Shown: one piece after another, positions 23,994 through 27,289 of the stretch
How the letters are laid out: every line of letters begins with the position of its first letter
Numbering within the stretch: the first letter of the stretch is position 1
Source of the DNA: Candidatus Altimarinota bacterium
Lineage (GTDB): Bacteria > Patescibacteriota > Gracilibacteria > BD1-5 > UBA6164
DNA: 64,000 nt
Direction of reading: 5' to 3'
Assembly (NCBI GenBank): GCA_028698305.1
Contig: JAQVDN010000006.1
Coordinates: 1-64,000 of the forward strand
Position numbers and translations under genes: made by a program
The notes under the pieces: generated by a model
What the model saw: the letters and a program-made list of their open reading frames with translations, nothing else
Database searches by the model: none
Told to the model about the DNA's origin: nothing

Positions 23994-25775
23994 CTATTCT
24001 AATTCTTCTTTAATTTCAATATGTAATTCATCAAGTTGCTCCCTGTCAATCACACTTGGTGCATTCATCATCAAATCTTGAGCTTTTCATGATTTTGGAA
24101 ATGCATAAACTTCTCTAATATTATTTTCATCTTTTAATATCATCATAAATCTATCCATACCTATAGCAAATCATCCATGAGGAGGAACTCAATATTGAAA
24201 TGCTTCATACATAGCACCAAATTTATCCATAACTTCTTGTTTTTTTCTACCAACTTTCTCAAAAGCTTTTACAAGAGATTCAACATCATGGTTTCTTATA
24301 GAACCAGAAAGTATTTCAAATCCATTACAAGCTAGATCATATTGAACTGATTGTATTGATAATAAATCATCATTATTAAATGCTTCAATACCTCATTTTG
24401 GCATAGAAAATGGATTATGAGCAAAATCTATTTTACCATTTATATCACTTTCTTCAAACATTGGAAAATCAGTTACCCAACAAAAAGCAAGTGTATTTTT
24501 ATCTGCTAATTCAAACTTATCTCTTAGAGCAAGTCTAACTACATTTAATATTTTTACAGCTTTTAAATATTCATCAGCTGAGAAAAATACTATATCACCA
24601 TTTTTTGGTTGTAATCTAGCCTCCATTTCTTTGATTTCAGCTTCTCACATAAATTTTAATATTGGAGATTTTTTTCCTCCTTCTTCATTATCATCATAGA
24701 TAATATAAGCTAGTCCTTTTGCTCCTGCTTTTTGAGCAACCTTAGTTAGATCATCAATTTCACTTCTAGACATTGATTTACATTCTAATTTAATAGATTT
24801 GATAACTCAACCAGTAGTTGCAACTGATTTAAAAACACTAAATTCACTCTCTAAAAATATATCTGTTAAATCAACAAATTTTAATCCAAATCTTAGGTCC
24901 GGTTTATCAGTTCCATAGTTTTCCATAGATTCTTCATAACTCATACTGTAGAATTTGTTATCCATAACAGTTTTTGGAGAAAGTGAAGCAACTACATCTT
25001 TTATATATGATTCTACCACTGAAAAAATATCAGCTTGTTCAACAAAACTCATTTCACAATCTATTTGATAAAACTCACATGCATGTCTATCCGCTCTAGG
25101 ATCTTCATCTCTAAAACAAGGTGCAATTTGAAAATATTTATCAATTCAACCAACCATCAAAAGTTGTTTGTATTGTTGTGGTGCTTGAGGAAGAGCATAA
25201 AATTTACCTGGATGTAATCTAGAAGGTATAACAAAATCTCTAGCTCATTCTGGACTTGATACAGTAAAAATAGGAGTTTGAACATCTAAAAATTCATGAG
25301 ATGTAAACCAATTTCTAGTATAATTTAAAAATCTTGATCTAAATTCTACATTTTCCAAAGCTTTTCTTCTTCTTAAATCTATATATCTATGTTTGTATCT
25401 TATTTCTTCATTTGCAAGTTCACCATGATCATCTAATTCAAAAGGAGGAGTTTTAGATCTAGATAATAAAGTAGTATTTTTTACTATTACTTCTATTTCT
25501 CAAGTTGCTAAATTAGGATTATTTTGACCTTCTGGTCTACTTCTAACAACTCATTCAATTTGTATTACATATTCACTTCTAAAATCAGAAGCTGTAGAGT
25601 GAGAACTAGCATCATCTTCAGGGTCAAAAACTACTTGAGTTAAACCATATCTATCTCTCAAATCTATAAATATGATACCTCAATGATCTCTTCTATTGCT
25701 TACCCAACCAGATAATTTAACAGTTTCTCAAACATTTTTTAAGTTTAATTCACTACACTTATGAGTTCTTAACAT
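23994..25775 (-). CDS. aspS: aspartyl-tRNA synthetase (bacterial type)
   Basis: Class II synthetase that charges tRNA-Asp (and, in organisms with GatCAB, often tRNA-Asn). The 593 residues have the N-terminal OB anticodon-binding domain ([18 protein letters not shown]), motif 2 in [15 protein letters not shown], a bacterial GAD insertion, the [10 protein letters not shown] block and motif 3 [13 protein letters not shown]. The Trp codons in this block are TGG while conserved glycines nearby are TGA, clear evidence that the two codons are read differently. gatC at 62262 fits a non-discriminating role, but this is inference. The gene has a T-box-like leader. Confidence 0.96.
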
Positions 25776-25798
25776 AAAAATTTTTATTAAAAAAATAA

Positions 25799-25987
25799 AA
25801 AGTATGAAAATATTGTCTTGTTAGATTTTTATTTTCATACTTTCGGTTCAAAATTGTTTTGAAAGGTGCCACCGAATAGTGATTCTTAATTTTATTTTTT
25901 AACGAAGATTTTCGACTTCGCAAGGTTCTACTAAGATAAATCTGTTCTTCCCTGAGCTCGCAGTTGTTTTCTGCTCAAACGCCTATG
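25799..25987 (-). promoter_or_regulatory. T-box riboswitch leader of aspS (candidate)
   Basis: Untranslated RNA just upstream of aspS. At 25842-25876 it has the canonical antiterminator: helix A1 TTCGG/CCGAA (25872-25876 with 25842-25846), the 7-nt bulge TGGCACC (25865-25871, T-box consensus UGGNACC), and helix A2 TTCAAAA/TTTTGAA closed by CAA. The variable bulge base is C, which pairs with a G73 discriminator, the base found in tRNA-Asp. A 14-bp terminator (25799-25812 with 25830-25843, then T-rich) overlaps the 3' strand of A1 by two bases. A hairpin ending CTTCGTTA resembles the upstream F-box. I could not assign Stem I or the specifier codon with confidence. It would raise aspS expression when tRNA-Asp is uncharged. 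Confidence 0.72.
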
Positions 25988-25992
25988 AGTGC

Positions 25993-26020
25993 ATTATAAT
26001 TTTATTAAAAAAAAATGCAA
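25993..26020 (-). promoter_or_regulatory. sigma70-type promoter of the aspS leader
   Basis: On the minus strand TTGCAT (26015-26020), a 16-bp spacer and a perfect TATAAT (25993-25998). Transcription would start near 25986, giving a leader of about 210 nt before the aspS ATG. Confidence 0.7.
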
Positions 26021-26125: not shown

Positions 26126-27289
26126 ATGACAAACTTGTTTTATGAGATATTTAACAAAAAAGTTGAATTAACACCTGAATTAGTAAAAAACTTTTTAGCT
26201 GAAGCTGAAAAATTATTTAATAAATTTAAAGTTGATAATGATGTAGATAACTTACTAATATTAAAAAATAAAATAGAACATTTACTAGAAGAAAAACTTA
26301 AAAATTTAACTGCAAAAGAGAAAAAAGAATATAATGATATAGATGATTTTTTAGATAAAATAAATGAATATCTTGAAGATTTAGTAAAACAAGCAAATAA
26401 AAAAGAACTTGTAGATGTAGTAAAAGAAATAGATAAAACATATAGAAAATGTGATGATGTAAAAGATGAAGATAAACATAAATTTTCAAAAGTTTGTATA
26501 AAAAAATCTACAATAGAATATGAAAAAGAATTGATAGAATTACAAGTTGAATTATTAAAATTACAAAAACATATAAAAGAAACAGGTCAAAAACTATTAC
26601 TAATTTTTGAATGAAGAGATGCAGCTTGAAAATGAAGTACAATTAAAAGATTTACAGAATACTTAAATCCTAGATGAGCAAGAGTTGTCGCACTTGAAAA
26701 ACCAAGCGAAATAGAAAGAACTCAATGGTATTTTCAAAGATATATAAAACACTTACCTGCAGGATCTGAAATGGTATTTTTTGATAGATCATGGTATAAT
26801 AGAGGTTGAGTTGAACCTGTAATGTGATTTGTCTCAAAAGAAAAATATGAACAATTTCTTGATGATGTTCCAAAATTTGAAAAAATGCTTGTAGAATCTG
26901 GTATAAAAATAATTAAATTTTATTTTTCTGTATCAAAAGATGAACAAAAAGCTAGATTTGATTCAAGAGAATTTAATCCACTAAAACAATATAAATTATC
27001 ACCTATTGATAAGTTTTCTCAACAATTATGGGATAAATATTCACTAGCTGAATATAATAATTTTAAAAATACTCATCACAAAGATGCTCCATGGGTTATT
27101 ATAAATAGTGATGATAAGAAAAAAGCTAGATTAAATGCAATAAAATATGTATTAAATCAATATGATTATCCTGAAAAAATAGAAGCTAAAAAATTAAAAC
27201 TTGAAAAAAATATAGTTTTAGATTGAAAACAAAAAGTAAAAGAACTTGAAAAACAAATAAATCTAGAAGAAGATTTATTTGAACAATAA
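26126..27289 (+). CDS. ppk2: polyphosphate kinase 2 family protein
   Basis: Transfers phosphate between polyphosphate and nucleotides. The 387-residue protein has a helical N-terminal extension of about 140 residues, then the PPK2 domain: Walker A FEGRDAAGKGSTIKR, the lid [23 protein letters not shown], Walker [19 protein letters not shown], and the conserved [15 protein letters not shown] and [18 protein letters not shown] segments. The P-loop is cut by TGA codons read as Gly. Single-domain length plus an N-terminal extension fits class I/III enzymes; class and nucleotide preference cannot be settled by eye. For a cell with sparse energy metabolism, polyphosphate-driven NTP regeneration is plausible (inference). 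Confidence 0.93.

Follow-up and report, generated by a model that had tools for sequence, protein, structure and literature searches.

The window analysed here, a stretch of 64,000 nucleotides from a tiny, uncultured code-25 CPR bacterium, contains the essential gene aspS preceded by a structured leader, which raises the question of what kind of regulator this leader is and which molecule it would sense. T-boxes have been described mainly from Firmicutes and Actinobacteria, and the initial annotation had proposed one at this locus, listing a promoter, a structured leader, an antiterminator with TGGCACC and a terminator upstream of aspS. All of these elements are present (Table 1), and the product of the gene is a bacterial AspRS (NCBIfam TIGR00459/NF001750, above cut-off). 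Up to the terminator, the leader has four supported structures, of which the first is a short hairpin, the second is a hairpin interrupted by an internal loop, the third is again a small hairpin and the last is the antiterminator carrying UGGCACC. Stem I, already suspected of being short, belongs to the ultrashort type, and A1, with 7 bp and one bulged A, is longer than first described. The divergent gene upstream (window positions 26126-27289, plus strand) codes for a product that, like polyphosphate kinase 2, contains the motif GRDAAGKG.

Table 1. Elements of the aspS locus, in window coordinates.
Element	Position	Strand	Basis or remark
Sigma-70-type promoter, TTGCAT-16 nt-TATAAT	26020-25993	-	Sequence reading
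aspS leader, ~200 nt	25992-25789, start about 25987	-	Sequence reading
Ultrashort Stem I: lower helix GGC/GCU, K-turn-like GUUUGA / GA, upper helix GCAG/CUGC	25955..25983	-	Covariation
7-nt apical loop of Stem I, AA-AAC-A-A	25964..25970	-	Codon/bulge/gene table, 99 leaders
Predicted specifier AAC, then conserved A	25968-25966	-	Codon/bulge/gene table, 99 leaders
Stem II with S-turn	25921..25954	-	Covariation; motif as in N. farcinica ileS structure
S-turn, GAA opposite GUAGA	25947-25945 opposite 25931-25927	-	In Stem II
IIA/B-like region: hairpin and conserved A-rich linker AAAUUAAG	25880..25920	-	
IIA-like hairpin CGAAG/CUUCG	25920-25903	-	Covariation
Antiterminator, A1 and A2	25840..25879	-	Covariation
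A1	25879-25872 with 25846-25840	-	
A2	25863-25857 with 25853-25847	-	
T-box bulge UGGCACC	25865..25871	-	UGGC complementary to GCCA 3' end of tRNA-Asn
Intrinsic terminator, 15-bp main stem and U-tract	25789..25844	-	
GAAAG common to terminator and A1	25844-25840	-	
aspS, ATG at 25775	23994..25775	-	Bacterial AspRS, 593 aa, code 25

Each of the six genomes sampled from the genus has this leader 5' of aspS, and it also occurs there in other genera and in another family of the order. It does not precede every aspS, as TGGNACC occurred within 330 nt upstream at 12 of 30 aspS loci. Among 11 aspS leaders, 19 of 34 pairs showed compensatory changes, against 6.4 in shuffled alignments; with 100 leaders this rose to 31 of the 34 pairs, with a covariation score of 0.603 versus 0.208 after shuffling, and all seven helices were supported. 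An unsupervised covariation scan of the leaders also recovered the helices; it revealed no further covariation of the kind that a IIA/B pseudoknot would leave, and the IIA hairpin itself was supported. Additionally, a covariance model (R3) for which the only input was 27 leaders taken from other classes of the phylum matched positions 25840-25984 (99.8 bits, E=9.4e-22), and nothing else in the 64-kb window reached E<=1; these 27 leaders were discovered through a model that included relatives of the window, so that the independence of R3 concerns sequence but not discovery. The fold of the single sequence, with the terminator left out, was not unusual (z=0.30), which makes the comparative evidence decisive.

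The initial annotation had named two outcomes that together would count against a T-box: a search with Rfam RF00230 that found nothing, and lack of conservation of the bulge upstream of aspS in relatives. The former was indeed observed, since RF00230 gave no match in the window or its own genome at gathering or relaxed thresholds, and none of 353 genomes of the class rose above the cut-off; sub-threshold matches in the class were set aside, lying mostly at other genes. The latter is contradicted completely by the conservation described above. All these data suggest that the aspS leader is almost certainly an RNA switch, namely a T-box-type antitermination leader as had been proposed for this code-25 CPR bacterium, with covariation and conservation among Ca. 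Gracilibacteria relatives behind it. Its place among the T-boxes is well supported by these comparisons, outside the family as modelled by RF00230.

Regarding the tRNA that would be sensed, the 7-nt loop of Stem I followed the pattern NN-codon-A-N across 99 leaders, and the codon and the variable bulge base were combined as AUC-U in 55 leaders, AAC-C in 38, GAC-C in one and AAC-U in one (L069), the remaining leaders having gaps or poor alignment at these sites. This split largely tracks two gene families, and the number of independent events is therefore smaller than the counts imply. The only strong covariation outside helical pairing linked the middle base of the specifier with the bulge base (rank 9). 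Where the downstream gene was identified, AAC or GAC leaders were followed by aspS, and AUC leaders by ileS or genes found near ileS. Furthermore, the bulge base complements the discriminator in the window's own genome, C with G73 of tRNA-Asn and U with A73 of tRNA-Ile. These patterns identify the AAC of the Stem I apical loop as the specifier and predict tRNA-Asn as the ligand, in place of the tRNA-Asp first put forward. The earlier argument that the bulge C fits G73 of tRNA-Asp is right in that tRNA-Asp has G73; tRNA-Asn has it too, and the base cannot separate the two. In the same genome, a tRNA-SeC(tca) called by ARAGORN probably serves to decode UGA as glycine under code 25.

An AAC specifier ahead of aspS matches the cognate tRNA only if the AspRS is non-discriminating. 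In this regard, no AsnRS above the curated cut-off was found in the genomes of 60 relatives, 57 of which have GatB_N; a divergent AsnRS candidate in the window's own genome was rejected, resembling LysRS by sequence. GatB was not found in this genome, whose assembly is 88% complete, and it is present in all five congeners at about 40 kb from aspS, a distance that would place it outside this contig; its absence is probably due to incompleteness. In the alignment the AspRS has His31 and Gly83, as at all 12 aspS loci with this leader, which we take to be the residues of the non-discriminating Pseudomonas aeruginosa AspRS. The lack of AsnRS, the GatB of relatives and these two residues all fit a non-discriminating enzyme, and this AspRS very likely makes Asp-tRNA-Asn. 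Sensing of tRNA-Asn by an aspS leader would then make sense: AspRS probably also puts Asp on tRNA-Asn, GatCAB would amidate it, and the charging of tRNA-Asn would thereby report AspRS output.

The terminator and the antiterminator are mutually exclusive, because GAAAG belongs both to the terminator and to A1; the overlap is thus of 5 nt and not of two bases as initially described. In the window, the terminator fold has -14.3 kcal/mol and only -7.3 kcal/mol without GAAAG, and since losing these shared nucleotides halves its stability, uncharged tRNA should lock A1 and prevent termination. Terminators were found in 115 of 129 leaders, and the 5-nt overlap with A1 is the commonest spacing among relatives (80 of the 115). 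With a probability of about 0.9, we propose a transcriptional T-box whose Stem I is ultrashort, with uncharged tRNA-Asn as the ligand and aspS as the gene under its control. In tRNA-Asn, the anticodon GUU would pair with the AAC of the apical loop, and the S-turn of Stem II may brace the anticodon-specifier duplex from the side. If the tRNA is uncharged, its free GCCA end would pair with UGGC of the bulge and stabilise A1/A2, which would occupy GAAAG so that the terminator could not close beside the U-tract and aspS would be transcribed; a charged tRNA would be unable to stabilise the antiterminator, and transcription would stop.

Other readings of this locus differ in the ligand or in the level of control. 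A T-box that senses tRNA-Asp through a specifier at another site, for instance the Stem II hairpin GAT that had been suggested as a candidate, would agree with the identity of the regulated gene and with G73 of tRNA-Asp, and a relative (L085) has GAC in its apical loop, with archaeal-type aspS leaders appearing alike. We consider it unlikely: the upper part of Stem II, where GAT is located, is variable and close relatives do not retain this triplet, the codon of the apical loop alone co-varies with the bulge, and AAC would form an A-C mismatch with the anticodon GUC.

That the leader acts on ribosome access rather than on termination, as in Actinobacteria, is suggested by an ultrashort architecture equal to that of the translational ileS T-boxes. 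This is very unlikely given terminators with a U-tract in most leaders, usually sharing 5 nt with A1, and given that no Shine-Dalgarno sequence is visible ahead of aspS in the window. Finally, a terminator ahead of a gene could belong to a leader-peptide or protein-dependent attenuator in which the T-box motif is fortuitous, and this we regard as hardly credible, since no ATG-started leader peptide exists 5' of the terminator in the window leader, the structure shows covariation, and codon and bulge agree with each other in many families.

Leaders of this kind also appear at other genes and in other genomes. The leader model matched in 92 of 353 genomes of the class and in 115 of 379 genomes (about 30%) of an even sample across Patescibacteria, where inspection of the weaker phylum matches covered the best 27 from outside the class. 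With the aspS model a second leader was found in the window's own genome (L063, G000:C12:121238-121397, plus strand), with a CU-AUC-AA loop and a UGGUAAC bulge. L063 precedes a 77-aa ORF and genes for CYTH-type and NYN-type proteins, and ileS starts ~3.7 kb downstream on the same strand; the genome's own IleRS (L193:4658-8440) is 1260 aa long and includes ~150 inserted residues resembling a hydrolase domain. Of 20 leaders ahead of ileS in other classes of the phylum, 19 read AUC-A, and the codon also occurs as AUC-C in some loops. Additionally, other CPR classes have GUC-A leaders with bulge U, ahead of valS where identified, and by eye the glyS leaders of the class carry GGA with bulge A and its archaeal-type aspS leaders GAC with C. 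A pattern search found no glyS T-box in the window's own genome.

Among the sub-threshold RF00230 matches of the class, some (L204-L221) lie before glyS, thrS, argG/argF and archaeal-type aspS, and those at arg genes and thrS resemble long-Stem-I T-boxes. A c-di-GMP-II riboswitch above the Rfam cut-off was also seen on a Patescibacteria contig (L309:2431-2514, minus strand).

The closest known architecture is shared with the ultrashort translational ileS T-boxes of Actinobacteria (Nocardia farcinica, Mycobacterium tuberculosis), which likewise have an apical-loop specifier and a short K-turn Stem I (K-turn-like in our leader by sequence only), a hairpin in the IIA region and a UGGN bulge; in N. 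farcinica the specifier is also followed by A, and the Stem II S-turn has GAA opposite GUAGA (NUAGA across our leaders). In contrast, the Actinobacterial T-boxes sequester the Shine-Dalgarno sequence whereas the Patescibacteria leaders have a terminator instead, and they differ further in the tRNA and gene (tRNA-Asn and aspS here; Ile, Val, Gly and Asp elsewhere), in the host phylum and in having no evident Stem III. With the canonical transcriptional T-boxes of Firmicutes (RF00230) our leader shares an antiterminator with a 7-nt bulge competing with an intrinsic terminator. Unlike them, it has no long Stem I and no elbow-binding IDTM, its specifier lies outside an internal loop, and RF00230 does not recognise it. 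According to the literature, a long Stem I carrying an IDTM is generally required in transcriptional T-boxes, and the lack of both in the aspS leader counts against our reading. Our literature search returned no report joining T-boxes with CPR or Patescibacteria, an absence that is not proof.

We consider it likely that Patescibacteria carry a large unannotated branch of terminator-type T-boxes that have an ultrashort Stem I, lack an elbow-binding domain and control tRNA synthetase genes (Ile, Val, Asn via aspS, and probably Asp and Gly). If true, this would contradict the view that a long Stem I is indispensable in transcriptional T-boxes, and an ultrashort Stem I linked to a terminator would challenge the kinetic argument for an elbow-binding Stem I in transcriptional T-boxes. 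It would also bear on which class of T-box arose first and would offer a small, testable tRNA switch. Patescibacteria are host-dependent and often scavenge amino acids, and these T-boxes would give them a visible amino-acid-sensing circuit.
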